A stretch of 44,689 nt of DNA from assembly GCA_017478245.1 (NCBI GenBank), contig JAFVDW010000119.1:1-44689 (forward strand), given 5' to 3'. Origin of the DNA: Lachnospiraceae bacterium (GTDB taxonomy: Bacteria > Bacillota > Clostridia > Lachnospirales > Lachnospiraceae). Below the pieces are notes generated by a model, which was not told the origin of the DNA, made no database searches, and saw only the letters and a program-made list of their open reading frames with translations. Numbering within the stretch: position 1 is the stretch's first letter; every line of letters begins with the position of its first letter. The position numbers were made by a program, and so were the translations under genes. Positions 3,664 to 19,555 of the stretch are shown here, in pieces.

Positions 3664-4581
3664 TTACTGTAGGTCAAAGAGGTTGACACGGGTAAAATCA
3701 AACTTCGTGTACGACAGACCGGTATACTCTGTCTTCTCATAGCCATTCAGACCCTTATAGGTAATTGCACTTCCTACCTCCAGATAGATTCTGAACTTCG
3801 TTCCCTCACTGTTCATCCCATTCTGAATGAGATGATTATCTATCAGTATGTAGTATAAGCCACCACTATCCAGATTACTGCTATCCGCCAACGTGTCATC
3901 CGAAACCTTATAAATCAGTCCATTATTTGCTGCTGATCCGGTAGGCGCTAATACATTGACTCTAATAGAGCCCTCATCCTCATCCTCAAAGGTCTGTGTC
4001 CCGTTCTTATCTACATAGTAAGCATTGACACCGATTGTTCTGGTACCTTTCACGAAGTTGGTATCCTCCACCGTAAAGTAAACCTTCGTATAATCGCTTG
4101 AGATCCCCGCCTCTTCATCCAGATTCATATTGTTTGCCGGGTCGTAGTAGCTATAGGAGGAGGTAATCTTCTCTGCATCCTTACTGCCATGACTCAGTAC
4201 GCTGATCGTAGGTGCCTTATTTCCTGATCTGTAGGACGCAATCATGGTATTGATAAACAGCTTCGCCTCATTTACAGGGTAGTTGCCACCGTTGTAGCCC
4301 GAGTGTCCCACACCTGTGTAAGTGATGTTACCCTTGTTGTAAATATAATAATTGTTTGACACATCATTGGGCGACATGGAATAAATTGTTTCCTGCTTCG
4401 TACCACCATTGAGACGCGGTCCTAAACAGAACCACACTACCAGGTCGCTCTGTCCATCTCCATCGTCATCCGCCGTAAAGTCCAACTGATAATACTGATT
4501 ATGCGTGTTGGTTACTAAAAACTCGTCATCCAAATGGTATGGATACTCTGTAATCTGACCGGAATTGGTCTTGGTAACCAT
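3664..4581 (-). CDS. C-terminal part of the giant T4P-associated secreted protein, separated by an in-frame stop
   Basis: This 305-codon frame is the direct in-frame continuation of the gene at 4603-8931. Only one TAA (4603-4605) and seven codons lie between them, and all are in the same frame. No Shine-Dalgarno site precedes the ATG at 4581, so independent translation is doubtful. It contains a DDDGDGQSD calcium-loop-like motif (4444-4470), a YxxN/GG-rich region, and beta-rich sequence to the end. It most likely encodes the tail of a protein of about 1755 residues whose gene has acquired a nonsense codon, or a sequencing error. Readthrough is also possible. It is the last gene of the T4P locus; a separate promoter for cheX lies just beyond. 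Confidence 0.7.
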   Translation of the reverse strand: MVTKTNSGQITEYPYHLDDEFLVTNTHNQYYQLDFTADDDGDGQSDLVVWFCLGPRLNGGTKQETIYSMSPNDVSNNYYIYNKGNITYTGVGHSGYNGGNYPVNEAKLFINTMIASYRSGNKAPTISVLSHGSKDAEKITSSYSYYDPANNMNLDEEAGISSDYTKVYFTVEDTNFVKGTRTIGVNAYYVDKNGTQTFEDEDEGSIRVNVLAPTGSAANNGLIYKVSDDTLADSSNLDSGGLYYILIDNHLIQNGMNSEGTKFRIYLEVGSAITYKGLNGYEKTEYTGLSYTKFDFTRVNLFDLQ

Positions 4582-4602
4582 CAGGTTGGTAACCTGCGCA
4601 TT

Positions 4603-7600
4603 TTAGTCCGCCGGAATCTCTCCATAATCATTAGACTTATCACTATAATATACCTGATCATATTTAATATTTAAATACTTGTTTGTAAAGGTATAATTCA
4701 ATCCGGTTTCGTTGGATGAAAAGCTGTCTCCACCAGAGCTATGCTTATCCTTCGCATTGATAATGGCATATGTAAAGCCCTGCGTCTCAGGAACTGTTGA
4801 CTGTCTGCCATCCTTGGGCGTGTACGCCATGTCCTTCCCCGCATCCACAACACTATCCCATCTTGCATCGACTGCGTTAAGTCCGGTGCCAGTTCTTAAA
4901 ACCCCCATATCCTCTGCCATCACACCGTAGCGATCCATGCCCACCAGTCCGCGAATCTGTTTGGTCAGATTATAAGAGCATCTGTACTGGTCTGTAATTC
5001 CTGTATCGTTGTTATTTCGATTCGTTATACCCCTTCGTTTGTTTCCATCAGGTCTATATTCATCGTAATTCCAGTACATAAGTGTATCATGCGCAAAAAG
5101 TACACTGCGCCCACTCTCAATATAGTTCTGAATGGCAATACAAGCATTTTTCGAAAAATCACCATACGCATCTGAAAATCCCAGAATCAGCATCCCGTAA
5201 TCTTCCAGAATATCCGGATTGGCATTAAATGCTCTTTCAAACTGAGAGATCGTATAAAATTTCACACGAATGTCATATTCGTTGTCTATACCATCATACC
5301 ACACCTTATCAATGGTACCGCCGTGAACAAGCTTATAGTAGTTATTGTTGTTGGTGGACAAAAGCTCTTCCAGGTTAAATAAGTGCTCTCCCTTACCACC
5401 CCACCAATTCGGTGTTTCTATAGTATCTCGACATATCTGTATAATATCCAAAACCTCTACTGGCTGCCCCATCAGCTTAGTATACCCCTGAACAGAATTA
5501 TGAATCCTGGAATTATTCTTCTGGATAATCAACACCTTCCATGGCAATACACCCTTATAGTCCTTAGGCACCGTACGTGTCAACGTATATGTTCTTCCGG
5601 CATACAGGGACTCTCCCGATTTTAAGGTCTGCCCATTCCATGCCACTGCGATATCTGACATCTTCTCTGTATCGGAGAATTTTCCATCCGCATTGACATC
5701 AATGTACAACTCACAGCCATACTCTGTGCTGTTGGAAGCAGCACCTTCATTGGTAAGCGTAAAGGTATAGCTCAACACATATTGCCCACTCGCATTCTTG
5801 TCAAGCTGATAAATCTGATCCTTTTTGACTCCGTTTACCTGCAGATTTTCCAAATTTACCTTGGGTCTGTTCAAATAAAAATTGAAAGACTCTGAATTGG
5901 CACTAATGTCACTGCTTGCATAGAAATTTGTGCGCTTAGCCTTCAGGGCTTCGTTCACAAATTGATACATATAGGAACTGTTATCAATATGGTCTGCATC
6001 AACAACACGCTCAATATTATCTGAAATTTGCTCTACCTTAATGGAGGAAACCTGATCGTTCCAGTTCACATTTCCTGTGCTTACCCAAGGCAACATATCA
6101 CTGTGATCACCGGTTTCATTATCAGAGGGGTTCGCATTCCATACAAAGGTTTTACTTGCCCCTTTGTAATCATCATCCTGATACAGTGTCACCTGATATC
6201 CTTTTTTTACCTTCAAAGAAGATACATCATCATTCTTTATATGATACTCGTCGCGCAGATTTGACAGAGTATACTCCCCTTTCTGCAGATTAGCACTGTA
6301 TCCTTTGTACTGAATATCCTCATAAAGAGTTACCGGGCTCTCAAAAAATTCATCCGCAACCACAACCGGATAGGAGGCATCCAGGAAAGCATTGAGTGCG
6401 TTCATTTTCTCCAAGGTGATATCATTTCCGCCATAGCGTGTGGGATTGTAATAGTACACATTTTGTCTACGATCACTATTGAGATACTCTGTATCCAAAA
6501 GACCTGCCAACTCCATTGCTACATAGCGTTTATCACCGGTATGATAATAGATTAATCCATCCATATTACTATCATTAAAGACGGTGCTTCCTGTACGAGT
6601 GGTGTTCATATGTTCTCTATCCACACCAATATAAACCATATCATATAACTCATTGATATCTTCAATCTTACCGATATATTCCGCCGTGGTCATTCTGGTG
6701 ATATTGATGGTCGTCTTATTCTCCGCCTTAGGATCCTCCCCAATCCAACTGCGCACCATATCTGCGTTCAAATGTCCCTCTGCCTCCTCCTTAGATGAGG
6801 ATTTTGCAGGCTCTATATCCAGAATATTGAGAACCTTCTTGGCAGCTACATTTCTGCGATACTTATAATTGATTACATGACGAATAACGGTCGCCCGTGA
6901 AATATAAGTTCCCAAAGCTTTATAGGTACCCGACTGATCCGCTGCACGATACTGATTCTCTGCCACTATCTCATCCAGCACTGCCTGGAACCCGTCCTTG
7001 ACCTGTGTGCTGTCTTTATTGTAAATTGTCTCTTTTGCAAAATCATCCCCCAACAGCTTAACAGGGTCAAAGAAGCTATACACATTTTCCGCCACAAAAT
7101 TGCGTTCACTGCCACTTACAGCGTTCTTCAGAAGAGTTTCAATTCCTGTTCTCCCATTATCATCGTACATTGCACTGGGATGTTCCTGTGAAAGCGTTGC
7201 ACTCAAATAGAAAATACGTGTATTTTGCAGTCCCTGACGCACTGTCACATTGTTGTCTGCTCTGGAATAAAGTATCGCTGCGTCCAACAGACATGCAGCC
7301 TGATTGGAAGTAATTGCCCGAATCAGGGCAAACTCCGCATTCTCGCTAATATCCTTACCATCCTCTGCCGCATAACCGACCTGACCGTTTGCAGCCAGAC
7401 CGGAGTTGATATACAATAAATCAAACGGAGGCAGTGCTCCCTCCTGATTTTGTACATATGCGTTCAGTTCCTCGACAGTCATGGTGACAACCTTCACAGG
7501 AAAATCATCAAAATTATCCGTCTGACTGTCCATATCCAGAACCTTCTCGCGGAACCATTCCCGATTTATAAATCCACCCTTATAATAGATACTGCTGGTG

Positions 7601-8931
7601 GACACAGCATATTCCTGTCCATCCTCTGAAGCGATAAAACGATAATTTCCTACTTCACTGATTCGGATACTACCGGTATTCACTGCATAAATAGGGAATC
7701 TATCTGTAGTCTGTCCCATTTCTGCCACAGTCATTCCATCCAAAATGGGATGATACTGAACATGATAGTAAAAAATGGTACTTGACTCAGAGATATATCT
7801 TTGATATACCTCTAACAATTCTTCATCTGTCAACGATTCTCTTTGTGCATCGCCATTAGATACAGTGCCTTGCTCCTCACTGCCAGACGAATTCTCATTA
7901 TCTGTAGGCTCCTGATTACCGGCACCTTCCTCATTATTGCCTGTTTCTTCAGAATTGGAGGTTTCCCCATTATTACCAGTGTTTTCTGTATTGGAAGCCT
8001 CCCCATTATCACCAGGCTCTTCTGTATTGGAAGATTCACCGTTTCCGTTAGCATCTTCGTTATTAGTTGATTCTCCATTTTCTGAAGCTTCTTCGTTTGC
8101 AGAATTATTTTCATCCCCGGAGCCGCTGTTATTTCTATATTGCTGATCAAATTCCTCCGGTGTGGGAATGGGTATCTCCGCCTTGATATCTCCCCAGGTA
8201 GCCGCTGCTACATAGGGACTTTGGGCAGGTAATGTATAAAACATTTCATCGTCAGAAAGACTTGCAATGTTCTCCGCTGTCACCTGCTGCGCTGTGGCAT
8301 AATAATGCTGCAACTGAATATCACGAGACAACAAATCGCTGTAGATTCCATCATAGTAAAAATCAAGCAAATAGTGGTGCTCCTTACGCTGTTTTTCCAG
8401 CTCTTCACCCTCTAACTGACTTTCATCATACACATCAAAATAACCTCGCATAAGTTGCTCTGCAAAGGACAACTGATGGTACCCTTCCTTTTCTGTCTCG
8501 CTCTCCTCGTACTCCTCATAAACTACCGGTGCATTACCCGCATTCAAGCCATATTGCGTTAAAAACGCACTCCATTTTTCCTTTAACCCTTTCATGTATT
8601 GGCTGCGTTCAGCGGCTGTTGGACACTGGCTGAGATTCTGCTGCCAACTGGTCCACTCTCCTGTGTCTTTATTGCGCGTGGAAATAGCCGGCTCGTATCC
8701 CGGAATCAAATAACCTATCTCAGAAGCTGACTCATTGGGAACCAACTCCAAAATGGTGTAGGTACGCCCTTCCGTCAGACGTACTTCCTCTTTCAAATTT
8801 TCAATACCATATAACGTGTCCTTTGCCTGCACCACAAAATCCTTGTTGCGCCCACCAAAATAACCTACACTGGTGGCTATCAGGCAGGCAGAGAGTCCCG
8901 CTGCAATTCTTCGCGCTGTTTTTGCTTTCAT
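4603..8931 (-). CDS. Giant secreted protein in the PilY1-like position of the T4P locus (DUF5057-like), ends at premature TAA
   Basis: The product is 1442 aa to a TAA and would be about 1755 aa with readthrough. It begins with a signal peptide (MKAKTARRIAAGLSACLIA, cleavage probably near residue 36). Residues ~285-356 are six 12-residue acidic Asn/Gly/Glu repeats. Residues ~862-967 look like a beta/gamma-crystallin domain: two YxxxxxxG Greek-key motifs and two calcium signatures, NDDVSS and NDQVSS. An EF-hand-like loop DVNADGKFSDTE lies at 1078-1089. A later stretch (MLILGFSDAYGDF to RSVLFAHDT) resembles a glutamine-amidotransferase-like fold. The whole recalls DUF5057-type proteins near Lachnospiraceae pilus genes, from memory only. 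Its place after four minor prepilins matches PilY1, the calcium-binding tip protein of proteobacterial pili. Function is inferred: surface or pilus-tip adhesin. Confidence 0.75.
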   Translation of the reverse strand: MKAKTARRIAAGLSACLIATSVGYFGGRNKDFVVQAKDTLYGIENLKEEVRLTEGRTYTILELVPNESASEIGYLIPGYEPAISTRNKDTGEWTSWQQNLSQCPTAAERSQYMKGLKEKWSAFLTQYGLNAGNAPVVYEEYEESETEKEGYHQLSFAEQLMRGYFDVYDESQLEGEELEKQRKEHHYLLDFYYDGIYSDLLSRDIQLQHYYATAQQVTAENIASLSDDEMFYTLPAQSPYVAAATWGDIKAEIPIPTPEEFDQQYRNNSGSGDENNSANEEASENGESTNNEDANGNGESSNTEEPGDNGEASNTENTGNNGETSNSEETGNNEEGAGNQEPTDNENSSGSEEQGTVSNGDAQRESLTDEELLEVYQRYISESSTIFYYHVQYHPILDGMTVAEMGQTTDRFPIYAVNTGSIRISEVGNYRFIASEDGQEYAVSTSSIYYKGGFINREWFREKVLDMDSQTDNFDDFPVKVVTMTVEELNAYVQNQEGALPPFDLLYINSGLAANGQVGYAAEDGKDISENAEFALIRAITSNQAACLLDAAILYSRADNNVTVRQGLQNTRIFYLSATLSQEHPSAMYDDNGRTGIETLLKNAVSGSERNFVAENVYSFFDPVKLLGDDFAKETIYNKDSTQVKDGFQAVLDEIVAENQYRAADQSGTYKALGTYISRATVIRHVINYKYRRNVAAKKVLNILDIEPAKSSSKEEAEGHLNADMVRSWIGEDPKAENKTTINITRMTTAEYIGKIEDINELYDMVYIGVDREHMNTTRTGSTVFNDSNMDGLIYYHTGDKRYVAMELAGLLDTEYLNSDRRQNVYYYNPTRYGGNDITLEKMNALNAFLDASYPVVVADEFFESPVTLYEDIQYKGYSANLQKGEYTLSNLRDEYHIKNDDVSSLKVKKGYQVTLYQDDDYKGASKTFVWNANPSDNETGDHSDMLPWVSTGNVNWNDQVSSIKVEQISDNIERVVDADHIDNSSYMYQFVNEALKAKRTNFYASSDISANSESFNFYLNRPKVNLENLQVNGVKKDQIYQLDKNASGQYVLSYTFTLTNEGAASNSTEYGCELYIDVNADGKFSDTEKMSDIAVAWNGQTLKSGESLYAGRTYTLTRTVPKDYKGVLPWKVLIIQKNNSRIHNSVQGYTKLMGQPVEVLDIIQICRDTIETPNWWGGKGEHLFNLEELLSTNNNNYYKLVHGGTIDKVWYDGIDNEYDIRVKFYTISQFERAFNANPDILEDYGMLILGFSDAYGDFSKNACIAIQNYIESGRSVLFAHDTLMYWNYDEYRPDGNKRRGITNRNNNDTGITDQYRCSYNLTKQIRGLVGMDRYGVMAEDMGVLRTGTGLNAVDARWDSVVDAGKDMAYTPKDGRQSTVPETQGFTYAIINAKDKHSSGGDSFSSNETGLNYTFTNKYLNIKYDQVYYSDKSNDYGEIPAD
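7864..8079 (-). repeat. Six tandem 36-bp units encoding a 12-residue acidic linker repeat
   Basis: Translated units read NGESTNNEDANG, NGESSNTEEPGD, NGEASNTENTGN, NGETSNSEETGN and two more degenerate copies. The period is exactly 36 bp and stays in frame, so copy number can vary without a frameshift. It separates the N-terminal domain of the giant secreted protein from its body and probably acts as a flexible spacer. Confidence 0.85.
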
Positions 8932-8952: not shown

Positions 8953-9468
8953 TTATGGCGTCGTTCCGTGAAGCTTTACCGGATTACGACAGGTTACATT
9001 CTGTGCAACAGTATATACCTTATCGTCATTCTTGTACTGTATCTCAAAGCGAACCGTCTTGTTGACAGTAAGCTTAGACAAATCCACATTGAAATCCTCT
9101 ACATACTCAGCAAGCAACTCCTCATTCGCCGTCTGTGCTCCGGCAACAAATTCTGAATAATAAATTTTATGGTCGTTTTGTTTCCAGGTGAGCACATAGT
9201 ATGTATCCGCCGCGTCATAGACTGTCAACTTTCTGATACTTCCGGAATCAGAAAAATCCACCTCTGACTTGGCGTCAATCAGCAACTCCATAATCTGGTT
9301 GCTCGCCACCTGCGCCTCGTACTGCAGGTTGACATCCTTGTTCTCTTTTCCGTAGTGCCTTGTCGAGGCATTCAGAAATCCAAGGATTGCAACCGATGCT
9401 ACTGCCAAAATAGCAATCGCCGCCACTAATTCAACTAATGAAAGTCCCGAATTCTTACTACTCTTCAT
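8953..9468 (-). CDS. Type IV prepilin-like minor pilin (PilW/GspJ-like)
   Basis: A 171-aa prepilin with a short basic leader ending in SKNSG, followed by LSLVELVAAIAILAVASVAI. This is a class III signal with Gly at -1, Glu at +5 and a hydrophobic helix. The remainder is a beta-rich globular domain. The frame also has a GTG and an ATG slightly upstream (9477, 9474). I prefer the ATG at 9468 because AGGTGAT, a strong anti-16S match, sits just before it. It lies between the FimT-like gene (28 bp away) and the giant secreted protein (21 bp away). The PilW/GspJ assignment rests mainly on gene order. Confidence 0.75.
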   Translation of the reverse strand: MKSSKNSGLSLVELVAAIAILAVASVAILGFLNASTRHYGKENKDVNLQYEAQVASNQIMELLIDAKSEVDFSDSGSIRKLTVYDAADTYYVLTWKQNDHKIYYSEFVAGAQTANEELLAEYVEDFNVDLSKLTVNKTVRFEIQYKNDDKVYTVAQNVTCRNPVKLHGTTP

Positions 9469-9496
9469 TCGCATCACCTATCAATTCCATTCTACG

Positions 9497-9991
9497 TTAT
9501 TCTCTGTAAATTTTTCCTGTCTTGGGCACTAATCTCATAGTAAATGTACGCTTTCCGTCAGACAATATAATTTTCTGACAATACACATCTGTCGTTCCGT
9601 TAAGCGGCTTAAATGCCCCTGTGCTCCTGTCAAACGCCAGTTCCAGCGGTGCTGCCTCCGTTGCATCCTGCACACCGGTATTCGTCATATAGCGCACACT
9701 CAATCCTCTTTTGCCAATACGCACTTCATCTGTTGCGTTGGAAAGCTTTATATAGACCTCTCCATTCGCTTTTGCATAAAGTTTTATCGTCACATTATTC
9801 TTGCTCATCGCTAATAATCTGGCATTTTCTATATTGGAATCCAGTTGCGCATAGCAGCTTTTGATATTCTGTCCTGTCACCACAGACATAGACATCAACA
9901 CTCCGGCAGACACCACGCTCATGATTGCTATCACCACTATCAATTCTACCAGAGAGAAGCCTCTCGAATCTTGTGTAAGCTCTTTGGTCAT
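9497..9991 (-). CDS. Type IV prepilin-like minor pilin (FimT/GspH-like)
   Basis: A 164-aa prepilin: leader MTKELTQDSRG, then FSLVELIVVIAIMSVVSAGV, with Gly(-1), Phe(+1) and Glu(+5) as prepilin peptidase requires. The C-terminal part, with short strands and a late LSDGKRTFTMRLVPKTGKI stretch, is like the GspH/FimT minor pilins that help prime pilus assembly. An AAGGAGGG site precedes the ATG. It lies 24 bp downstream of the giant PilX-like gene. Together with the PilV-, PilX- and PilW-like genes it completes the minor-pilin set known to form the tip initiation complex in other T4P systems. Confidence 0.8.
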   Translation of the reverse strand: MTKELTQDSRGFSLVELIVVIAIMSVVSAGVLMSMSVVTGQNIKSCYAQLDSNIENARLLAMSKNNVTIKLYAKANGEVYIKLSNATDEVRIGKRGLSVRYMTNTGVQDATEAAPLELAFDRSTGAFKPLNGTTDVYCQKIILSDGKRTFTMRLVPKTGKIYRE

Positions 9992-10015: not shown

Positions 10016-13000
10016 TTACTTCTTAGACCAGTTTTCATAGGTAATATACTGTGCGTACTCCGCATAACCTTTGCGGTTGTTCACAGCCTCGCTCTCCTCC
10101 TGCATATAGCTGTCACCATTGATAAAATAATGTGCAACGATGGTCTTGGCGTCATCAGCCTCACTGATCTTGGTCTGCAGGATTTTACGCACCTTCTCGC
10201 GACTGGTTCCAATCGTGTTGACACCGGGTTTTATCTGAATCTTTCCCTTAGCTATGATAATTCCCTCAAAGTCTGCTTCCACCTGCACATCGCCTGTTGC
10301 CAAAATCAGGCACACATTCTGCTGATCTGTACCTATTTTATTGTACTTGAAAGCCGTACTGCTCTCATTGTTTACCACAATCGCCCTTATCGTTTCCGCT
10401 CCGTAGGTATTGGTATACACAGTGCCGTTGGTACCCACACCTGCAAACGCAGACGCATTCACCAGATTATCAAATAAGTCTGTGTTAAATACAGTGGGTG
10501 TACTTTTGAGTTTTTCATAATCATAGGTCAATTTACTTCCTAGCGCGCTGTAATTCTTCTGGTAAGTCAACTCCTCACTCGCCAGATCCGCCAACTGAGT
10601 TGCGTTGAGTGCCGTACCATTGTTACCGGCAGCCTTTATGTCAATCTTTCCTGCACTGTTGGAATGAACCATATTTCCATCCAAGGTCAGACGTGAAAAG
10701 CTGTTGCTGGTTTTCATGGTATTCACATACTGCTTCATGTAGCTTTCCAATTTTGCTTGGTTCGCATAATAATACTCCGAGAAATAGCTGGAGATATATG
10801 CAGGCTCCAAATTTACATAAAAGTATACCATACTGGTTCCACCCTGAACCTGCACGAACACTTCCTGATAACCATTGCCGATAGGGTGGTAGTCGCTCAA
10901 GGACTTATTCAGTCCGGTAATCTTTTTGGTCAGATCCACTTCTTTAAAGTTAGGATGTCCTTCTCCCTTATAATTGGTAAACAGTGCATACTGCTCCATA
11001 CTCATGGGATTCTGTCCAAACACAGTCTTGCCATCCTCTACTCCAATACACTCTGCCGGAACCAAATATGCGATTTGGTTACTCTTGACCTCAATGGATT
11101 CTCCCAGATTGACATTTACATTGCTTGCCTGAATTGAGAACGCAGAGGTGCTCTGTGTCTCATGAACATACTCGCTTCTCGCTGTATTTCTGGTTACATT
11201 ATCACTGCCTGTAAAGTTGATGGTGTATGTGATAACGTCATTAATATACAGATTATTGAGCGTCAATAATCCCACGCCGTTAGAAACGCTCATATCCGCC
11301 GTTGTCGCTGCGCCGCCATTCACGCTATAGGTGATTCTTGCTGCTGTGACTGTATATGCAGCCGAGCTTGCCGCCTGAATTCTCGCTACTGCTCTATCCT
11401 CACCACTATAACTCATACTATATGAAGGGCTTGTGTTCATATTACTGGAAACCACCACACTGCTGTCTGCCTGTTTGCTTGCCGCCTCATCATCGGCAAA
11501 ATATGATTCCCATCGGAAACGGAAAAGTTGACGACTCTCATCGCTGTATTTTCCCTCCTCGGTCGCTCTTACTGCCCAACCATTCGCTTCATCCACATAC
11601 AGATATCTATCTGTATCAGCAATCTTGATATAGTAAAAATCATCCTTACCGCTGTATTCAATTTCAAAGTTCATATTGCCATCGCTGTCTATCACCTCTT
11701 TATCCATAAACAGCGCGCTTGTGATATTGGTTCCATTCACCTGCTTACTGGTGATCTGTCCATAGGCACCGTCACCAACCAAGGTAGAATAGAAATAAAA
11801 GCTTCCATTAGCATTACTCTGTATTACTGTGCGCTCCCAGGCAAGATTCCCATTGCCGACTCCGTCCGCATTTCTATTGACATGGGTGGGAGTACCTGCC
11901 CCATTGTTACCTTCGTTGCACCAATAGCCGCCCTGATCTCCCTGCGCTCCCGGACAATAAATCGTGTAATAGCCAGTCGCCAGACGAAGTTTTCCGTTTG
12001 TACTGCCTGCATTTCCCATGCCTGCCTTATGTACATAGCTGTTAGATACCGTGTAATTATATTCTCCTACCGAGTAATTGATGGAATATGACACGCGTAC
12101 GTCATTCTTTAGCCCTGTGATTGTACAGCACATCACATTACTGCTAAACTGGGAAGCACTCATATCCCTAGTGATATTCTGCTCATTGCCCTCTACCACA
12201 TAAGTAATTGTGGCTGTTGCCAGCTTTTCATTATCCGCCCATTCCTGTGCACCAATGGTCAGATACGCAGTCTCCTCATTGACATATGTCACTGTGATAA
12301 CCGGATCCTTGGCAACCGGTGCATTTCCTACTAAATTGAACGTAAACAACTGGGCAGCGCCACTAACCTTATCTCTGCTTGCATACGCAATCCGATTGCC
12401 TGCTGTACCATTGCCCACCGTAACGTATTTATTATTGTAATCTGACAGCAAAGCATACTGTCCGCCATCTTCATTGATGAACTTTAGCCAGAACTTCTCT
12501 GCCGGTCCGATGGTATTGGCGCCTGCCTTCAGAGAACCGTCCGCCTGCACCGATACATATTGATAATGATTACCTGTATCCTTCAGTGCAACCGTTCCGT
12601 CCGAATTATTGATTAATTGAAACTGTTCCCATGTGCCCACATTTCCAGCAGCAGTACGCACCACCACATTGTTATTATCACTGCACCACAGCAAATTATT
12701 ATATTTCGAGCGTAGTGTATATATACCGGAAGGTAGACTTCCGTTCTGCATTTTTTCGTCATAAGTAGGATCTGTAGGTACAGACACATCCTGTAGCGTC
12801 TGTTGGTCATATGACACATTTCCTGTATTCAGTTCTGCACTTCCTGACAGAAGCAACCTCTCCAGCTTTGTCATATCCAAATCGGACTGTACACCATTAA
12901 TCAGAATGGCACTGCTGGGACCACCTGCTTCCGTGCCGTCTGTTCCATCATTTTTCAGCTTCGTCCCATTGCCATAACCGTAGTACTCTCCGCCGAGTAT

Positions 13001-13927
13001 CACCTTGCTGCCGCTTCCTTTCATAATCAGGTCGTCAGCAACATAGGTCTTTCCTTCTGCATCCAGTACCGCACTTTCCAAATTGAGCTTACTGGTCCAG
13101 AGCTCCGTACCTGTCCCTATCTTCAAGCTGGAAGAACTACCCAGATTGGTGTCCCCCTTGACAACTACACGGTCAGCATTTTGAATGTTCCACTGATCGC
13201 CAACCTTCAGTTCCAAGCCTTCCGAGCCCGCGTACACATTGTCAGAAATATCCACATGAACCGCACCGGAGGCACTTTCCAGCTTTTTGTTGGCAATCAA
13301 CGTATACTGAAATACATCCGGCATATCTGAGGGCTGTATAAAGTTCAAATCCGGCGCACTGATACGAATATCCGTTTCAATAACCGACACAAATCCATCA
13401 TCTGGATTTACATAGCTAACCTGTAGACCAGTTAATACCAACGCTACATAATCGGTGCTCACCAAAGGATCCGGCGCATCCGGATCCGGCACAAGATAAA
13501 CGCTCCCGCCATTTACGCTGAGTGTGGTATTGCTCTCCACATCCGCAGTCAAATAGTTTTTTAATTTATCAAGACTATATTGTCCTACTGGACCACCATC
13601 TTCCAGTTTCGCCTTCAAATCGCTCAACAAGCGATTATTGAAACGATATTTGCGGACGGATTTCGAGGAGGTTGAACCATAGTCCTCCATCACTGCTGTA
13701 TAGGCATTCTTTGCAACAACAGACATCTCCTCCTGCAGTCCCAGATTAATCTGTTCCAGAGCTCCCTCTGCCGAGTAGAAGTTATTCTTTGCCTCACGGT
13801 CTACGCGCTTCATCTGCATATTTAATCCCACCATTGTATACAAGGTGGACACAAGTATACTGACAAAAGCGATAACAACTATTATAATAATCATCGCCGA
13901 ACCGCGATTATCTCTTTTGATTCGCAT
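10016..13927 (-). CDS. Giant PilX-like minor pilin with beta-trefoil and Ig-like modules, predicted pilus-tip adhesin
   Basis: The protein is 1303 aa; PilX/GspK-type pilins usually have 150-350. The N-terminus (MRIKRDNRGSAMIIIIVVIA) is PilX-like: short basic leader, Gly, long hydrophobic helix, and an FYSAEGALEQI segment resembling the PilX AAEAAL region. Glu at +5 is absent. Residues ~396-531 look like a fascin/ricin-type beta-trefoil (IYTLRSKYNN, WEQFQLINNSDGTVALKD, YVTVGNGTAGN). Residues ~540-632 and ~820-922 are two related Ig/CBM-like modules, each ending in a YVH motif. Residues ~640-807 look like a second trefoil (YYTIYC, DRYLYVDEANGW, LFRFRW). The C-terminus has beta-helix-like strands (CLILATGDVQVEADFEG). 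The trefoils suggest carbohydrate or surface binding. Domain calls are by eye. Confidence 0.78.
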   Translation of the reverse strand: MRIKRDNRGSAMIIIIVVIAFVSILVSTLYTMVGLNMQMKRVDREAKNNFYSAEGALEQINLGLQEEMSVVAKNAYTAVMEDYGSTSSKSVRKYRFNNRLLSDLKAKLEDGGPVGQYSLDKLKNYLTADVESNTTLSVNGGSVYLVPDPDAPDPLVSTDYVALVLTGLQVSYVNPDDGFVSVIETDIRISAPDLNFIQPSDMPDVFQYTLIANKKLESASGAVHVDISDNVYAGSEGLELKVGDQWNIQNADRVVVKGDTNLGSSSSLKIGTGTELWTSKLNLESAVLDAEGKTYVADDLIMKGSGSKVILGGEYYGYGNGTKLKNDGTDGTEAGGPSSAILINGVQSDLDMTKLERLLLSGSAELNTGNVSYDQQTLQDVSVPTDPTYDEKMQNGSLPSGIYTLRSKYNNLLWCSDNNNVVVRTAAGNVGTWEQFQLINNSDGTVALKDTGNHYQYVSVQADGSLKAGANTIGPAEKFWLKFINEDGGQYALLSDYNNKYVTVGNGTAGNRIAYASRDKVSGAAQLFTFNLVGNAPVAKDPVITVTYVNEETAYLTIGAQEWADNEKLATATITYVVEGNEQNITRDMSASQFSSNVMCCTITGLKNDVRVSYSINYSVGEYNYTVSNSYVHKAGMGNAGSTNGKLRLATGYYTIYCPGAQGDQGGYWCNEGNNGAGTPTHVNRNADGVGNGNLAWERTVIQSNANGSFYFYSTLVGDGAYGQITSKQVNGTNITSALFMDKEVIDSDGNMNFEIEYSGKDDFYYIKIADTDRYLYVDEANGWAVRATEEGKYSDESRQLFRFRWESYFADDEAASKQADSSVVVSSNMNTSPSYSMSYSGEDRAVARIQAASSAAYTVTAARITYSVNGGAATTADMSVSNGVGLLTLNNLYINDVITYTINFTGSDNVTRNTARSEYVHETQSTSAFSIQASNVNVNLGESIEVKSNQIAYLVPAECIGVEDGKTVFGQNPMSMEQYALFTNYKGEGHPNFKEVDLTKKITGLNKSLSDYHPIGNGYQEVFVQVQGGTSMVYFYVNLEPAYISSYFSEYYYANQAKLESYMKQYVNTMKTSNSFSRLTLDGNMVHSNSAGKIDIKAAGNNGTALNATQLADLASEELTYQKNYSALGSKLTYDYEKLKSTPTVFNTDLFDNLVNASAFAGVGTNGTVYTNTYGAETIRAIVVNNESSTAFKYNKIGTDQQNVCLILATGDVQVEADFEGIIIAKGKIQIKPGVNTIGTSREKVRKILQTKISEADDAKTIVAHYFINGDSYMQEESEAVNNRKGYAEYAQYITYENWSKK

Positions 13928-13946: not shown

Positions 13947-15230
13947 TTAATCCAGAATACTTCCCTTCATAGTAGTAAGCAGTTTCTCTGTTCCTGCTTC
14001 GTAAACGGTCACTTCCGCATCATAAACCCGATTTGCCTCATGACCTGCATACATTACATCCCCCGCAAACAAATCGCTTGCTGCGGAGCCATTGTACTTG
14101 ATATCATACAAAACGCCCGTCACACTATATCCCGGATTTGCCAAATTCTGATAAATATTTGTATAAACCTTCGTCTTTAAATCCGCCTTCTGTACACCTG
14201 TACATGTAAAATCAATCTGCAACTTGCAGGTGTCCTCCGTGGATGCTTCTGTCCTTTTCATGTTCACTGCACTCTGTTCCGTAGTCAATGTATCCAACTT
14301 CTGCTTAAACACATTGAGGCTCACCGGGATATTCTGTGGATTTACATATTCAATCACATCAAAATCCGAGCGAGTAGAATACAATGGTGTAAAATATAGA
14401 TAGATGGCGCGCAAATCCTTTGTATACTGCGCACTATCATAACATACTGATTCACGATCAAAGTCCAAAGAGGAATCACCATATTTCTCATAATGATAAT
14501 GTACCGTAACCGTGGTTCTTCCGCTATTTTCGCTAACCGTAATCGTAATTTTCCGTATGAGCTGTGCCGGAACATCTGTAATGGAGCACTCTGAAATTGC
14601 ACTCATAGTGTAAGCCATCTGCTGAATGCACAGAGCATCCTGCTCCTCATCAATAATAGGCATCTGCACCAAATCCTTGGTGTTATAATTCTGCGCATCA
14701 GCCGTCGTGCCATCTAGCTTGATTCGCACATCGTATTTGCTGCCATCTATATCGACATTCTTCATCTGAAAATAGTACTTGGAATCGGAGTTTGCCACCA
14801 ACTCATAGGTGGTACCACCGTCTGTAGAATAAGTGCTGGCATGATCTGCCAAGCCTGCAAACCCCTTCTTCCTGTCTGTCACAGACGGATCAGGGCTATA
14901 CTCTTCGTTTTTCTTTACTGCGTCATAGCCTCCGGTGGCATTCAGTCGATACTCACCTATGGTGCCCACCTGTGAAGTCGGCATGATTCTGAAATTTACA
15001 CCGGGATAATTGAACTGAGCGGAGATATTTTCCAATCTCTCCGCTTTCAATCCCTCCATCACGCTCTGTGCCAGAGTGGTAGCTCTATGCATCTTCTTTG
15101 CCTTCGTATTGGCACTTGCCGTAGTCACAAAGGAGTGCAGAAAAGGAGTGACTACAATAGCAAGTATAATCATAGCCACCAATACCTCTATTAAGCTAAG
15201 GCCACTGTTATCATCCTTTAACTGCTTCAT
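13947..15230 (-). CDS. Type IV prepilin-like minor pilin (PilV/GspI-like), long form
   Basis: A 427-aa prepilin with leader MKQLKDDNSG followed by LSLIEVLVAMIILAIVVTPF, showing Gly(-1) and Glu(+5). The ASANTKAKKMHRATTLAQSVMEGLKAE segment fits the helix of PilV/GspI proteins. The globular part is about twice the usual size, so this minor pilin may also carry an added surface domain. An AGGAGG site lies 7 nt before the ATG and overlaps the end of the pilO-like gene. It is followed 19 bp later by the giant PilX-like gene, the order seen in proteobacterial pilV-pilW-pilX clusters. Confidence 0.8.
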   Translation of the reverse strand: MKQLKDDNSGLSLIEVLVAMIILAIVVTPFLHSFVTTASANTKAKKMHRATTLAQSVMEGLKAERLENISAQFNYPGVNFRIMPTSQVGTIGEYRLNATGGYDAVKKNEEYSPDPSVTDRKKGFAGLADHASTYSTDGGTTYELVANSDSKYYFQMKNVDIDGSKYDVRIKLDGTTADAQNYNTKDLVQMPIIDEEQDALCIQQMAYTMSAISECSITDVPAQLIRKITITVSENSGRTTVTVHYHYEKYGDSSLDFDRESVCYDSAQYTKDLRAIYLYFTPLYSTRSDFDVIEYVNPQNIPVSLNVFKQKLDTLTTEQSAVNMKRTEASTEDTCKLQIDFTCTGVQKADLKTKVYTNIYQNLANPGYSVTGVLYDIKYNGSAASDLFAGDVMYAGHEANRVYDAEVTVYEAGTEKLLTTMKGSILD

Positions 15231-15241
15231 AAAAAAGCCTC

Positions 15242-15961
15242 CTACTGCTCCTCATCCTCATCTACCGTGACTACCTCATTGGGACTCACGCGAGTACCGA
15301 AAATATTATTCGTTCCAAGCTTGATACCTGACATTTCACTCTTCTCATACTGCTTATCCGTTCCGCTCAAGGTAAACAGACGCATCTCTGTATTGCCCAC
15401 CAAAATACCGGTGTTTCTGTCGTAGGACATTGCCATCGTCTCGATGGTTCTGCTGTTATTATCTTCCACAATATCCTTAATGAACTGCTTCATACCATTG
15501 TATGAAAACTGGTTTGCCAAAGTAATCTTCTGGCTGTAAAGACGGAAGGTACGAGAAGTGTTATTCTCTGCATCTTCCTCGCTCAAAGGAACCGTGGTGG
15601 GACCAATTTCATATAATAATTCCGGATCTTCCATACCTACAGAAGAGATAAAGGTATTGGAATTCCTCGCCTCAAGTCTTGCTGCATAGAGCACTGCATC
15701 CTCCTCCAGGGAATTAGCAGGGAACTGTGCAATCAACTGATTGATATCCTCCACCATGATAGCAGACTCTCTCTCATACTTGGGCTTCTCCTCTTGCCAA
15801 GCCTGCAATTCAGCAATCCTGGTATGCAGGGCATCGCAGTCTCTCTGTAACTGCTCCGTCTCATCCTTATAGGGCAAATATACCATCACCAGTGCGATTA
15901 TGGCTGCAAAAATACCTACGATAGCAGCCAACATGGATAATTCTTTCTTACCGACCTTCAT
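15242..15961 (-). CDS. PilO-like inner-membrane alignment protein
   Basis: A 239-aa bitopic protein. A basic N-terminus (MKVGKKELSM) precedes one transmembrane helix (LAAIVGIFAAIIALVMVYL), then a coiled-coil with DETEQLQRDCDALHTRIAEL, then an alpha/beta domain. This is the PilO architecture; PilO pairs with PilN and links PilM to the assembly platform. The frame is open upstream, but the ATG at 15961 has GGAGGAG 5-6 nt before it and lies only 4 bp after the PilM-PilN stop, indicating translational coupling. Sequence identity to proteobacterial PilO would be low, so the call rests on topology and position. Confidence 0.75.
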   Translation of the reverse strand: MKVGKKELSMLAAIVGIFAAIIALVMVYLPYKDETEQLQRDCDALHTRIAELQAWQEEKPKYERESAIMVEDINQLIAQFPANSLEEDAVLYAARLEARNSNTFISSVGMEDPELLYEIGPTTVPLSEEDAENNTSRTFRLYSQKITLANQFSYNGMKQFIKDIVEDNNSRTIETMAMSYDRNTGILVGNTEMRLFTLSGTDKQYEKSEMSGIKLGTNNIFGTRVSPNEVVTVDEDEEQ

Positions 15962-15965
15962 ATTA

Positions 15966-17606
15966 TTACTCCTCCTGTTCTGCCGCTTCTTCAGTCTCAA
16001 AAATTGTAGCCTTCTCCTGGTCAAGCTGTGCCTTTACCAGATTGTTATATATACAGTTTACAGTGAAGCTGACTGTATGCGCACCGGTATCGCTGATGGT
16101 CTCTGTAACAACAGTGGTATCTACAATAGCAATGCTATTGAAATCTCTCAACTGCTGCAGTACCAAAGCTGCCGCATTTTTATCGGACACTTCTACATTC
16201 AGCGTAACCCCACCGGCTGTTGAGCTCAAAGAAAGCACCAATATCTCAGAGGGCATCTTCTCCTCCAGTTCCTCAATGAACTCCACCAACTGGTCGTTCT
16301 GATTCACCGTCAGACCATACATGGAGCGAACATTTTCCCAGAGCTGTTGGGTGGCAACATACTGATTATGCGCCGTCTCTGCCGGAAGCAAGGTATTGAC
16401 CTGTCTCTCTAGCTTCGCTTTCTCCTGCTGTGCCTGATTGCGGGGAACCCAACCCATGACAGCCAACACACCTGCTACTACCACACCGCCTGCTGCGATT
16501 GCCAGAGGAAGCACCACATTATCGCCGCTTCCCGCTGCCTGTTTGCCTTTTTTCGCCTTAAATACCGTTACCAAATCCAACGGATTCATTCCGGCACCGA
16601 TACATCCCACATAATTGCCCAGTGCATTTTCCACAAAATCCTTGTGAACCGTCAAGCCCTCCACATTGCCCAAAGGAACAGTGAAAAGCCCCAGACGCTC
16701 TTGAACCAACACGCTCATACCGCCGAAGGAGCCGCCGAAGCCGGTGAGCATAACACGCTCGATATTCGTATTCTCCGGCTTGGAGTTGTGGAAGTCAACC
16801 ACGCGGGAGATACCGTTGACCAGCATCTCCAGAGAGCTGTTCATATCCTCCAATGCCTCTAAATCCACAATCCCCTCCCACTGGGAATTGCCAATGTAGG
16901 TATGCTCCTGCAACTCTGTTACCGCTTCAATATAGGTACTGTTATTCCCCTTCTGCACAGCGCGAACCACCTCGTTCACGCCATAAGGAATGCTTCTGAA
17001 GGAGGTCATCACGCCGTCGGAAATAACCATCAGCATGGTGGAATAGCCGTCAATCTTCACCACCATATTCGTACCTTCCTGACAGCTTCTCTTGGTAGCC
17101 TGTAGCAAGCTGTTACCCATATAGTCAATAGCGGCTATTTCCATGCCAAGCATTCTCGCCACGTCAAAATAGCCCTGCAACAGTGTCTCAGGAACCGCCA
17201 TCACCAACACCTTATAGCTGCGCTCCTTACCCTGACCAAGCACGCCCAGAACGGTATGTGCGATACGATAATCAGACAGATCTACAGGGAAATATTCCTC
17301 TGCATTGGCATGAAGCACCTCACCAATACGACTCTCCTTCACATAGGGAATGGTGACCTCACGGCTTGCAATCTTATTGGACGCAATGGTAAACACCAAT
17401 TTCTTCTCTCTGATCTTGTTGTTGTCGAAAGTATCGCGCAATAACTGCACGAAGGACTCTCTGGGGTTGAGCATACCATCCGCAATAACACCCTGGGGTG
17501 TCTCAATGGTGATGCTCTTCTGCACCTTCGGATTCTTCTCCTTGTAATTCATGACGCAGATCTTGGTTAATGCCTGACCTATCTCAATACTTATAACCCT
17601 AGCCAC
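15966..17606 (-). CDS. PilM-PilN fusion protein of the T4P assembly complex
   Basis: The protein is 546 aa. Residues 1-~345 match PilM, an actin-like cytoplasmic ATP-binding protein (ISIEIGQALTKICVMNY, then the ANAEEYFPVDLSDYRI segment and VMLTGFGGSF). A transmembrane helix at ~362-388 (VVLPLAIAAGGVVVAGVLAV) is followed by a coiled-coil and a ferredoxin-like domain of the PilN type (PSEILVLSLSSTAGGVTLNV). In most bacteria PilM and PilN are separate, with PilM docking on the PilN N-terminal tail. Here the contact is covalent. The start is a GTG at 17604-17606 with an AGGAGGAG site. The prepilin peptidase gene lies 91 bp upstream and pilO 4 bp downstream. Confidence 0.85.
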   Translation of the reverse strand: MARVISIEIGQALTKICVMNYKEKNPKVQKSITIETPQGVIADGMLNPRESFVQLLRDTFDNNKIREKKLVFTIASNKIASREVTIPYVKESRIGEVLHANAEEYFPVDLSDYRIAHTVLGVLGQGKERSYKVLVMAVPETLLQGYFDVARMLGMEIAAIDYMGNSLLQATKRSCQEGTNMVVKIDGYSTMLMVISDGVMTSFRSIPYGVNEVVRAVQKGNNSTYIEAVTELQEHTYIGNSQWEGIVDLEALEDMNSSLEMLVNGISRVVDFHNSKPENTNIERVMLTGFGGSFGGMSVLVQERLGLFTVPLGNVEGLTVHKDFVENALGNYVGCIGAGMNPLDLVTVFKAKKGKQAAGSGDNVVLPLAIAAGGVVVAGVLAVMGWVPRNQAQQEKAKLERQVNTLLPAETAHNQYVATQQLWENVRSMYGLTVNQNDQLVEFIEELEEKMPSEILVLSLSSTAGGVTLNVEVSDKNAAALVLQQLRDFNSIAIVDTTVVTETISDTGAHTVSFTVNCIYNNLVKAQLDQEKATIFETEEAAEQEE

Positions 17607-17697
17607 AGTCTCTCCTCCTTTGGCTTTTATCTCAACGCTCTGCTTATAGCGCAGGCGTTATATTCGATTTCAAAATTATTTTACTCCCAAAAATAAA

Positions 17698-18453
17698 TCA
17701 CATAAAAACGTTAAAATACCACTGTAGCATCTTTTCGCCCCAAAGCGTAGCTATCATCAAGCCCAGTGCCAGATAGGGGCCCAACGCCAACATGTGGTCA
17801 GCCTTTGTGACACGCATGCGAATCAGATGCACAATGGAACCTATTATGCAGCCCAACGCAAAAGCCAGAACCGTCAGCTTCCAGCCTAGCAGCAGTCCGC
17901 ATACTGCCATTAATTTCACATCACCGCCGCCCATTCCGCGGCCTTTTGTAATCAAACGTATCAATTCTAAAGGTACACTGACTGAAAGGAGGCCAATTCC
18001 ATAACTGAGCCAATCAGTATAATCAGTAATTACACGAATCAGCCCCAGAGCCAGTATAAATAATACTATACCATCAGGAATAATATAAGTCCTGAAGTCA
18101 ATCACGCTTATCACAATCAGTGCAGAGAACAGTAAGCAGTAGAGTAGGGTTTCGATGCTTACTCCGTACACTGCATAGATAAGTAAATAGAGACCTCCAT
18201 TCAGCCCCTCAATCAGAGGGTACTGAATGGAAATCTTCTGTTTGCATTTGCGGCATTTCCCGCCCAGAAACAGATAACTGAAGATAGGCACCAAATCGTA
18301 CCACTTCAGTTGGTAACCGCAGTTCATGCAATGGGACCTGGACTTGGCAATGCTCTCTTCCTTGGGAATGCGATAGATGCACACATTCAGGAAGCTGCCA
18401 ATCACAATTCCATAGATTAATACTACGATTCCATAAAACACTGTCGGGGTCAT
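17698..18453 (-). CDS. pilD: Prepilin peptidase (A24 family leader peptidase/N-methyltransferase)
   Basis: A 251-aa polytopic membrane aspartic protease that cleaves prepilin leaders after Gly and N-methylates the new N-terminus. The N-terminal domain has the zinc-binding CMNC ... CRKC pairs (HCMNCGYQLKWYDLVPIFSY, GGKCRKCKQKIS). The two catalytic Asp motifs are visible: VIDFRTYIIPD and GGGDVKLM. About eight hydrophobic segments follow. A TTG six codons upstream is in frame, but the ATG at 18453 has AAAGGA at 9-nt spacing and is preferred. It lies 48 bp after the first pilin gene and serves all prepilins encoded in the locus. Confidence 0.93.
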   Translation of the reverse strand: MTPTVFYGIVVLIYGIVIGSFLNVCIYRIPKEESIAKSRSHCMNCGYQLKWYDLVPIFSYLFLGGKCRKCKQKISIQYPLIEGLNGGLYLLIYAVYGVSIETLLYCLLFSALIVISVIDFRTYIIPDGIVLFILALGLIRVITDYTDWLSYGIGLLSVSVPLELIRLITKGRGMGGGDVKLMAVCGLLLGWKLTVLAFALGCIIGSIVHLIRMRVTKADHMLALGPYLALGLMIATLWGEKMLQWYFNVFM

Positions 18454-18501
18454 AGGAAATAGTCCTTTCAAAATATGTCGGTACTGCTCTTCTAAATAAG
18501 A

Positions 18502-18975
18502 TTAGAACGCCCTGGAAGTACCGGAAGTTGCACCAGGTGTATCAATAAATCCGGTAGCATATACCTTAAGGGTGCCGCTCTCATCAACTACCATAAGAGT
18601 AACAGCTGTACTGCTGTTGTTGTAAGTGCTAGATGAAAGCTCTACCGTCTCTCCCAATACAGACTTCAGCTCTTTCTGAAGGGGAACAGTATCAACAAAC
18701 GTAACACTCTTAGGGGAACCAGTCGACGCACTGTTCAATGTAATCGTTCCATTTGTTGTTGGATTCGTTGTAACGCTCTTTGCGATTGTTTCATCTGCAC
18801 ATGCAATCTTCATGTTCTCAGCAATCTCAGCGATTGCGGAGTTGTCCTTCTGCAGACGGGATTTCTCCACATACTTCAGATACTGGGGTGCCAGTACTAC
18901 CATCAATACGCCCATGATAGCGATAACAACAATCAACTCTACCAGGGAAAAACCTTTGTTACTTGTCTTCTTCAT
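18502..18975 (-). CDS. pilA: Type IV pilin, probable major pilin (PilA-like)
   Basis: A 157-aa pilin: leader MKKTSNKG, then FSLVELIVVIAIMGVLMVVL, with Gly(-1), Phe(+1), Glu(+5). The helix continues as APQYLKYVEKSRLQKDNSAI, and the rest is a Thr/Ser-rich beta domain. The frame is open 7 codons further upstream, but the ATG at 18975 has AAGGAG at 9-nt spacing while the upstream ATG has none. It is near-paralogous to the pilin at 19077 through the first ~60 mature residues. It sits in the classical position beside the prepilin peptidase. Which of the two pilins forms the fibre cannot be told from sequence. Confidence 0.85.
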   Translation of the reverse strand: MKKTSNKGFSLVELIVVIAIMGVLMVVLAPQYLKYVEKSRLQKDNSAIAEIAENMKIACADETIAKSVTTNPTTNGTITLNSASTGSPKSVTFVDTVPLQKELKSVLGETVELSSSTYNNSSTAVTLMVVDESGTLKVYATGFIDTPGATSGTSRAF

Positions 18976-19076
18976 AGCTTTTTTCTCCTTTTTCATAATA
19001 AATTTTTATCTTAAACGCCCTCCCTACTCAAAGGACGCTTAATTCATAAACATCGCTTTCCCGCGCTCAATGTACT

Positions 19077-19544
19077 TTAGAATCGCCTTGTTCCAGCCTC
19101 TCCATCAGCCTCATCAATATATCCATTCACATAGACCACAAACACGCCGGACTCATTTCGGACAACAAACTCAACAGCATCTGCCGAGATGCTATATGTA
19201 TTAGAGACGGTTTGATATCCTCCATCCACCACGCCCGCCAATTCTTTTTCCAGCAAGTTGCTTGAAGTGGTCGAAAAAACAATCGTTTTGGTTTCTTTGA
19301 CCCCACCTATAAATCGAAACTCCACCGGTGCGTTTTGTTGAATCATCCATTCCGCAATCTCCTCCTGGGCACATGCCATCTTGATATTCTCCGCAATCTC
19401 ATCGATAGCAGTATTGTCCTTCTGGAGTTTTGTGTGCTCTACATATTTGAGATACTGAGGTGCAAGCACCACCATGAGTACCCCCATGAGTGCCAGCACA
19501 ATCACCAGCTCCACCATTGAAAAGCCTTCATTTCGCTTTCTCAT
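19077..19544 (-). CDS. Second type IV pilin, paralogue of the adjacent PilA
   Basis: A 155-aa pilin with a very short leader MRKRNEG followed by FSMVELVIVLALMGVLMVVL (Gly -1, Glu +5). The helix-to-loop segment LAPQYLKYVEHTKLQKDNTA aligns position by position with the neighbouring pilin. The C-terminal halves are more divergent, except for shared EFVVRNESGVFVVYVNGYID-like strands. An AAGGA site precedes the ATG by 7 nt. It begins 11 bp after the pilC stop and ends 101 bp before its paralogue, consistent with a tandem duplication and subsequent divergence. It may be a minor pilin or an alternative fibre subunit. Confidence 0.83.
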   Translation of the reverse strand: MRKRNEGFSMVELVIVLALMGVLMVVLAPQYLKYVEHTKLQKDNTAIDEIAENIKMACAQEEIAEWMIQQNAPVEFRFIGGVKETKTIVFSTTSSNLLEKELAGVVDGGYQTVSNTYSISADAVEFVVRNESGVFVVYVNGYIDEADGEAGTRRF

Positions 19545-19555
19545 ATACTTTCCTT

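Follow-up and report, generated by a model that had tools for sequence, protein, structure and literature searches.

A giant DUF5057 protein of a Lachnospiraceae type IV pilus locus as a possible PilY1-like tip effector

The pilus locus and its interrupted gene

The window analyzed in this study is a stretch of 44,689 nucleotides from a Lachnospiraceae bacterium. On its minus strand the region 3664..8931 follows PilV-, PilX-, FimT- and PilW-like prepilin genes, as the earlier note had recognized; all of them are read in the same direction, and further type IV pilus (T4P) genes are present as well. The PilW-like gene (8953..9477, minus strand, N_methyl match) is named by its position immediately upstream, at a distance of 21 bases. 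It is preceded on the same strand by a FimT/GspH-like gene identified by profile matches (9497..9991), a giant PilX-like gene of 1303 codons (10016..13927; PilX_N E 2.5e-4, below cut-off) and a PilV-like gene (13947..15230; type_IV_pilV E 8.6e-9, below cut-off). PilO-, PilM-, PilD-, two PilA-, PilC- and PilB-like genes of the same locus occupy 15242..22611 (minus strand), named from a PilM_2 match, two pilin-motif proteins and an ATPase match, the others being read from the translations.

The region had been presented as a single gene, which it is not in this sequence: an in-frame TAA at 4603..4605 (minus strand) divides it into frames of 1442 and 305 codons. The first frame (4603..8931, minus strand) covers a signal-peptide-like N-terminus, an N-terminal region, a first alpha/beta domain with an inserted crystallin domain, a beta-sandwich with an EF-hand-like loop and the start of a second alpha/beta domain. 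The second (3664..4581, minus strand) lies in the same frame, begins with an ATG at 4581 and holds the conserved C-terminal part, which phmmer found in 55 of 72 loci; no clear ribosome-binding site was seen by eye, and a product of its own is doubtful. Intact relatives are open through the region of the stop. Among the 17 closest relatives three are cut by contig ends, one (L137) is split and 13 have single frames of 1930-2354 codons, so the window copy is either broken or wrongly assembled. Decay into a pseudogene, to which we give slightly less than an even chance, would leave the canonical crystallin motifs and the DDDGDG loop described below uninformative for this strain; besides the stop and the intact relatives, a second T4P locus in the same strain speaks for it. 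Against decay, we noted no lesion besides this one, the two pieces are each open and conserved, the source genome, assembled into 119 contigs, may contain a base error here, and split frames occur in two other loci (L137 and L165) among the best 80 of 112 confirmed loci.

The DUF5057 family and its linkage to pilus genes

The longer frame matches the Pfam family DUF5057 (PF16480) with 141 bits against a curated cut-off of 27.9 (E 8.5e-41), and the main match of the profile search covers 5086..6003 (minus strand). The family is found mainly in Lachnospiraceae, and a full-text search returned no paper on it. Among cultured relatives, Kineothrix alysoides and Anaerobium acetethylicum have the gene intact. 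Our collection comprised 153 family ORFs, 135 after removal of redundancy, 132 of which include the C-terminal half.

The PilY1-like position claimed for the window gene is a rule of the family. We examined two overlapping sets of family genes, with some contigs in both, for which 3 kb or more of upstream sequence is available: T4P genes or prepilin ORFs precede the gene in 63 of 64 loci of the first and in 68 of 68 of the second. The first set leaves out six genes with less than 3 kb upstream and three weak C-terminal hits (L102-L104) without T4P genes; the second leaves out 12 loci with less than 3 kb upstream from the best 80 of 112. Conservation of gene order had been set as a test, and homologues lying mostly away from T4P loci are not what was found. 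The linkage spans many genera and reaches another class (L099-L101); in one full member (L052) the 12.8 kb upstream contain no T4P gene. Pilus loci that lack such a protein occur both in the same bacterial family (e.g. L107, L111-L113, L118 and L119, in ORF lists inspected by eye) and in the own genome (L123), so the pilus can do without it. No PilT-family match above its cut-off was found in the own genome, which makes a role in retraction doubtful.

The view that the protein is unrelated to PilY1 by sequence agrees with our searches: PF05567 matched neither of the two window pieces (E <= 0.1) nor any of 25 homologues (E <= 0.01). It was found in none of 299 genomes of the family and in none of 14 control genomes either, so that this count is without a positive control.

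Predicted domains, conserved motifs and the tail

The N-terminus (residues 1-45; 8797..8931, minus strand) is signal-peptide-like in sequence and lacks a prepilin motif. A hydrophobic N-terminal segment is found in 119 of 120 family members by simple hydrophobicity rules; a motif rule detected a prepilin motif in 0 of 120 relatives, and the window piece gave no N_methyl match. Further along the window protein lies a low-complexity linker rich in N, G, E and S (residues 265-365; 7837..8139, minus strand), mostly modeled with pLDDT below 50.

In the model of an intact relative the predicted scaffold is built of two alpha/beta domains that flank a beta-sandwich. For the first of these domains the model is the sole basis of the alpha/beta assignment. 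The sandwich carries the EF-hand-like loop and corresponds to 5461..5871 (minus strand), with boundaries drawn by hand from residues 339-474 of the L134 model. The second alpha/beta domain begins in 4606..5460 (minus strand), would run on past the stop, and has a predicted ThuA-like fold in L134, resembling class I glutamine-amidotransferase-like structures (4jqs, 4e5v and the glutaminase domain of CTP synthetase). The VIA list for model m64341dc3f728 holds crystallin, ThuA-like and sandwich folds; that a beta-propeller is missing from this list excludes nothing. Conserved residues of the second domain (G572, D575, H606 and D607, L134 model numbering) are as compatible with an enzyme as with a scaffold. 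A different explanation is a secreted enzyme or nutrient-binding protein that leaves the cell by way of a pilus-like, type II secretion-like machine, in the manner of PulA and its dedicated system; the filament would push the protein out, and the ThuA-like domain would act on or bind carbohydrate. We regard this explanation as unlikely. Known type II secretion serves the crossing of an outer membrane, which these bacteria do not have, the giant PilX-like pilin resembles a display pilin, and we know of no catalytic activity in the DUF5057 family. As a difference from the ThuA-like and amidotransferase-like structures named above, the domain is here embedded in a pilus-linked multidomain protein.

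The crystallin pair described in the earlier note is a real domain, inserted at residues 866-968 (6028..6336, minus strand): residues 867-960 match the solved beta/gamma-crystallin 3hzb (E 2e-12) and residues 866-954 match clostrillin (E 5e-12). The Pfam profile Crystall scores 16 bits on the window, below its cut-off of 25, and exceeds the cut-off in three of four relatives tested. With clostrillin and Flavollin the window shares the domain fold and two complete N/D-N/D-X-X-S/T-S motifs, NDDVSS (first motif, 6217..6234, minus strand) and NDQVSS (second motif, 6043..6060, minus strand); in contrast to these proteins, the domain here is inserted in a hairpin of a giant protein, and none of 17 relatives has either motif complete. 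In all 17, motif 1 has lost N/D-N/D and retained S/T at position 5, and motif 2 has retained N/D-N/D and lost S/T at position 5. If each calcium site draws ligands from both motifs, one site of the pair may persist in these relatives.

One and the same hairpin takes different inserts. Among 131 proteins with both anchors, window included, it carries a crystallin domain in 16, an Ig-like insert in three (two with a Pfam match, one recognized by eye), a CBM26-like insert in two (over the cut-off in one) and another insert in one; in the remaining 109 the span is just 30-80 residues long. The crystallin domain is limited to tips that group in a single clade of the tree (0.983), and the CBM26 tips make up a separate one (0.979; 99 in another analysis). 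A large secreted-type protein with interchangeable adhesive-type modules would also suit an adhesin of the cell wall whose gene is no more than a passenger of the T4P operon. This seems improbable to us: a C-terminal membrane segment was detected in 0 of 123 members and an LPxTG-like motif in two of 123, and, as noted above, linkage to T4P genes extends over many genera and to the members from another class (L099-L101).

All calcium-type motifs of the earlier note lie, on the minus strand, where it had placed them, namely DVNADGKFSDTE at 5665-5700, DDDGDGQSD at 4444-4470 and the crystallin pair. Three kinds of calcium motif are thus true of the window sequence and not of the family, in which the EF-hand-like loop is the only one of the three that is a general trait. 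When conservation among homologues is taken as the test, this loop (5665..5700, minus strand) holds, being present by a strict pattern in 112 of 130 members scored and missed in 18; of 127 members scored 51 have the DDDGDG loop, and of 17 relatives none has a complete crystallin motif at either site. That the three motifs act as one system was considered and rejected in view of the unconserved crystallin motifs and the partial distribution of the DDDGDG loop. Chance does not account for the EF-hand-type pattern D.[DN].[DN]G in this family: it was counted 253 times in the 132 relatives, and shuffled sequences gave 33.3 on average. In the 56-row alignment A2 the D, D and G of the EF-hand-like loop are listed as invariant, and the loop is flanked by strands 389-395 and 413-416 of the L134 model (pLDDT about 90). 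In the three members from another class of the phylum it is missing in L099 and L101 by one scoring and in L100 and L101 by the other. The DDDGDGQSD loop lies behind the stop and fits the published PilY1 consensus Dx[DN]xDGxxD exactly; DVNADGKFS of the EF-hand-like loop fits it up to the G. Calcium binding is expected of the latter loop.

The protein of the window would end in LFDLQ (3667..3681, minus strand), which fits the conserved tail pattern of the family (mostly LF[DEN]L[DEN]). The pattern is found in 109 of 123 members and absent from 14, among them all three genes of the other class (L099-L101), as compared to four of 1098 other ORFs; the controls comprise ORFs of 300 codons or more, whatever their frame, from the loci retrieved, 19 T4P loci among them, and many are not genes. 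Two of the four tail-bearing controls are giant secreted T4P-locus proteins without a DUF5057 match.

A possible tip effector of monoderm pili

Our preferred reading, which we think may equally well prove right or wrong, is that the DUF5057 member is a pilus-tip effector of Gram-positive bacteria that works like PilY1 without being related to it. DUF5057 proteins would be giant, secreted non-pilin proteins belonging to one kind of T4P locus. The most likely seat of such a protein would be the tip of the pilus, on the complex of minor pilins, the place taken by PilY1 in diderm bacteria; from there it would present a binding module to the surroundings. The conserved tail would be the likeliest contact with the pilus, the EF-hand-like loop in the sandwich would bind calcium and stiffen the scaffold, and the hairpin of the first alpha/beta domain would take interchangeable modules, beta/gamma-crystallin in the window clade and immunoglobulin or starch-binding modules elsewhere. 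Gene place, family membership, predicted folds, the conservation of loop and tail and the exchange of inserts are results of this analysis, and secretion, tip location, docking through the tail, calcium binding and adhesion are inferred. With its stop ahead of the tail, the window copy would not work by this scheme in the present assembly. The fuller version, an undescribed giant non-pilin family that is the monoderm equivalent of PilY1, docked to the minor pilins by its common C-terminal tail, stiffened by a calcium loop of the PilY1 kind and with heads exchangeable in one hairpin, is a tentative proposal that we hold to be somewhat more likely wrong than right. For a control of the pilus by calcium at its tip we offer no more than a hypothesis.

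One source describes PilY1 as a large modular non-pilin tip effector (PMC10191384), and another gives it a C-terminal beta-propeller as conserved core and the EF-hand-like loop Dx[DN]xDGxxD (PMC8833165). Both PilY1/PilC (PF05567; diderm type IVa pili) and the DUF5057 protein are large secreted-type non-pilin proteins, encoded directly with minor pilins, with an EF-hand-like calcium-type loop between beta-strands and a variable binding module. In contrast to PilY1, the DUF5057 protein is without a PF05567 match, has a predicted core of alpha/beta domains and a beta-sandwich where PilY1 has a beta-propeller, and carries its variable module as a mid-protein insert and not as an N-terminal domain; its C-terminal tail may be a further distinction. 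The modular minor pilins PilB and PilC of Streptococcus sanguinis likewise represent adhesive or lectin modules grafted on a pilus component of a monoderm T4P, but they are pilins with class III signal peptides, whereas the DUF5057 protein has no prepilin motif. PulA and TcpF, listed in PMC10191384 as non-pilin tip-located effectors of a T2SS and a T4bP, are also non-pilins served by a type IV filament machine; they come from other hosts and are likened here by role, not by sequence.

In PMC9934059 the PilC/PilY1 non-pilin adhesin is reported absent in monoderms. For the capping of those of their pili that have no modular pilin to do so, DUF5057 offers a concrete and testable candidate in common gut bacteria: the family is conserved and syntenic, its members share a loop of calcium type and a tail of docking type, and their heads can be exchanged. 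If true, an EF-hand-like loop would be known from a second pilus-tip protein that is unrelated to the first, and the target of a pilus could be changed by swapping a single crystallin, immunoglobulin or starch-binding module.

The split gene and its locus

Whereas the earlier note had taken 3664-8931 (minus strand) for one gene, translation of the sequence gives two pieces: an open frame of 1442 codons that starts at 8931 and ends with an in-frame TAA (4603-4605), a stop that had been missed, and a second of 305 codons in the same frame from an ATG at 4581 to 3664. Both pieces were handled separately in all analyses; the DDDGDGQSD loop (4444-4470) falls in the second piece, after the TAA. In 13 of the 17 closest relatives (L125-L141) the gene is one uninterrupted frame of 1930-2354 codons; in three it is cut by a contig end and in one (L137) it is split, as is the DUF5057 gene of a more distant locus (L165). 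Either the window's copy became a pseudogene recently or the assembly contains an error here; the gene as assembled is probably not functional.

A PilW-like prepilin gene (8953-9477, minus strand) lies 21 bases ahead of the 1442-codon frame. Upstream, in one direction, are FimT/GspH-like, giant PilX-like (1303 codons), PilV-like, PilO-like and PilM-like genes and, further on in the same type IV pilus (T4P) locus, genes for a prepilin peptidase, two pilins and PilC- and PilB-like proteins; where no family matched, the name was given by reading the translation. The same genome (2.49 Mb, 119 contigs) has one DUF5057 gene; contig 77 bears a further T4P locus that lacks one. This second locus has no gene for a giant non-pilin protein, encodes a PilW-like prepilin of 761 codons and adjoins topA- and codY-like genes (named from their translations); in a relative (L134) the giant gene itself is near such genes.

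The giant PilX-like prepilin (10016-13927) matched FRG1, Fascin and CBM_56 weakly, each under the Pfam cut-off, and is possibly a second binding component of the same pilus. It ends in ITYENWSKK; a W following N, D or E occurs within the last ten residues of 70 of 89 large ORFs from the fetched loci, chosen by a loose PilX_N-like pattern, a second conserved terminus in the same loci beside the DUF5057 tail. Downstream, on the strand of the DUF5057 gene, 2266-2628 encodes a response-regulator receiver protein and 2661-3548 a protein that scores above the CheX cut-off; the two may connect the pilus to signalling. By eye, the 842-codon protein at 39042-41570 begins with a signal-anchor-like segment; Pfam gave nothing for it at E <= 0.1.

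Family spread and gene order

The window protein matches Pfam DUF5057 (PF16480) with an E-value of 8.5e-41. Counting the window's genome in each case, DUF5057 was matched in 63 of 299 genomes of the family Lachnospiraceae and in seven of 398 across the phylum, three of the seven belonging to another class. No paper on DUF5057 was found in the collection of full texts searched, and among the papers listed on PilY1 and on pili of monoderms, Clostridia, Lachnospiraceae and Blautia, judged from titles and the starts of abstracts, none dealt with such a protein.

The PilY1-like gene position proposed in the earlier note is borne out, homologues lying mostly away from T4P loci not being seen. In a first set, 64 of 70 DUF5057 genes had at least 3 kb upstream, where T4P homologues or prepilin ORFs were present in 63 (all except L052) and PilB, C, D or M in 61. 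In a second set, the best 80 of 112 confirmed loci from named genomes and sharing some contigs with the first, T4P homologues or prepilin ORFs preceded the gene in all 68 evaluable loci, with core genes in 60. Three weak DUF5057 matches (L102-L104) had no T4P linkage. In the three loci from the other class (L099-L101) the T4P genes are divergent, with a PilB-like gene adjoining; their proteins lack the tail and end in DRY or NRY, and the EF-hand-like loop was missing from L099 and L101 in one scoring and from L100 and L101 in another.

In L074 a single T4P locus is followed by a tandem pair of family genes, of 1646 and 1664 codons. The gene also occurs in L138, L150, L153 and L169, labelled Muribaculaceae, Oscillospiraceae, Oscillibacter or Faecalibacterium; L138, a member of the crystallin group, may be misbinned under such a label.

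An exchangeable module and calcium-type motifs

Flanked by YPVVVADEF and DNSSYMYQF, the crystallin domain is inserted into a hairpin of the first alpha/beta domain. It is present in 17/17 close relatives and lacking from 12/12 aligned more distant ones; Pfam Crystall exceeded its cut-off in three of four clade members tested. Counting the window, 131 proteins have both anchors; in these the hairpin holds a crystallin domain in 16, an Ig-like module in three, a CBM26-like one in two and another insert in one, while 109 have a span of merely 30-80 residues. The Ig-like assignments come from Ig_2 in L152 (45.7 bits, cut-off 27), Ig_3 just under the cut-off in L169, and inspection by eye in L153, which had no Pfam match; CBM26 was over its cut-off in L067 (28.3 against 28.1) and below it in L202, and the L170 insert matched an F5/8-type module weakly. 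FastTree, run on 129 tips, unites the crystallin tips in a single clade (0.983) in which the window branches first and to which Kineothrix alysoides (L142, without crystallin) does not belong; the CBM26 tips pair (0.979), and the three Ig tips fall within a group of four (0.516). A 49-tip IQ-TREE tree agrees (CBM26, 99; Ig tips inside a five-tip group, 100; crystallin tips plus L142, 100), the crystallin node itself having lost its support value on rooting. Our reading is that a single hairpin spot has acquired unrelated modules on three or more occasions.

Three kinds of calcium motif had been claimed, and all are in the window's sequence, but only the EF-hand-like loop DVNADGKFSDTE (5665-5700, minus strand) is kept in the family. 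At its aligned site D.[DN].[DN]G occurs in 112 of 130 non-redundant relatives and a relaxed version in 122; counted along the full proteins, the pattern is found 253 times versus 33.3 in shuffles. Its D, D and G are invariant in a 56-row alignment, and in a structure model of L134 the loop lies between two strands with pLDDT ~90. The DDDGDGQSD loop fits the PilY1 consensus Dx[DN]xDGxxD for an EF-hand-like loop, as worded in an excerpt of PMC8833165; of 127 relatives, 51 have the full pattern, 19 a partial one and 57 none; the count in the window's clade is 14/15. Both crystallin motifs, of the form N/D-N/D-X-X-S/T-S (excerpts of PMC3551895 and PMC8639718), are complete in the window and in 0/17 relatives, where the losses are complementary between the two sites. 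The earlier note overrated the calcium theme, but what it saw is real and well placed.

Secretion features, tail and candidate role

By simple rules rather than a predictor, a hydrophobic N-terminal segment was called in 119 of the 120 members whose 5' end is intact, a C-terminal membrane segment in 0/123 and an LPxTG-like motif in 2/123. The final five residues form a strikingly conserved tail: [LIMVF][FLYWH]xLx closes the protein in 109 of 123 members versus 4 of 1098 other ORFs of 300 codons or more from the fetched loci; slid inwards, the pattern fits at most 1/123. L stands at position -2 in 117 members and at -5 in 98, and F at -4 in 91; L099-L101 are among the 14 members without the tail. 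Two of the four other tail-bearing frames (L108, L122) encode giant secreted-type proteins within T4P loci, with no DUF5057 match by Pfam or our own HMM, and two giant T4P-locus proteins with weak matches to that HMM (L105, L117) end in FFMLD and LFDLD. Because these four end in the tail pattern, the tail seems to extend beyond proteins detectable by DUF5057.

A review excerpt (PMC10191384) lists PilC/PilY1, PulA and TcpF as non-pilin tip effectors. In the portion consulted of PMC9934059, S. sanguinis uses modular pilins and PilC/PilY1 is called absent in monoderms, with a similar statement for S. sanguinis in an excerpt of PMC6916266; PilY1 was absent among the 299 Lachnospiraceae-family genomes in a search without a positive control. 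Unlike those modular pilins, the DUF5057 protein has no prepilin motif (0/120 members with an intact 5' end). The chief rival explanation, in which a pilus-like machine serves a secreted enzyme or binding protein, is favoured by the ThuA-like fold and by a profile search of the window's own genome that gave no PilT-family match over the cut-off. Gene place, lack of prepilin and wall anchors, the conserved tail, the calcium-type loop and the exchangeable heads fit a candidate non-pilin tip effector, which is our best reading from sequence. Such a protein would dock at the pilus tip, would be expected to bind calcium, and may present its exchangeable heads to a putative ligand. The DUF5057 family itself is of interest.
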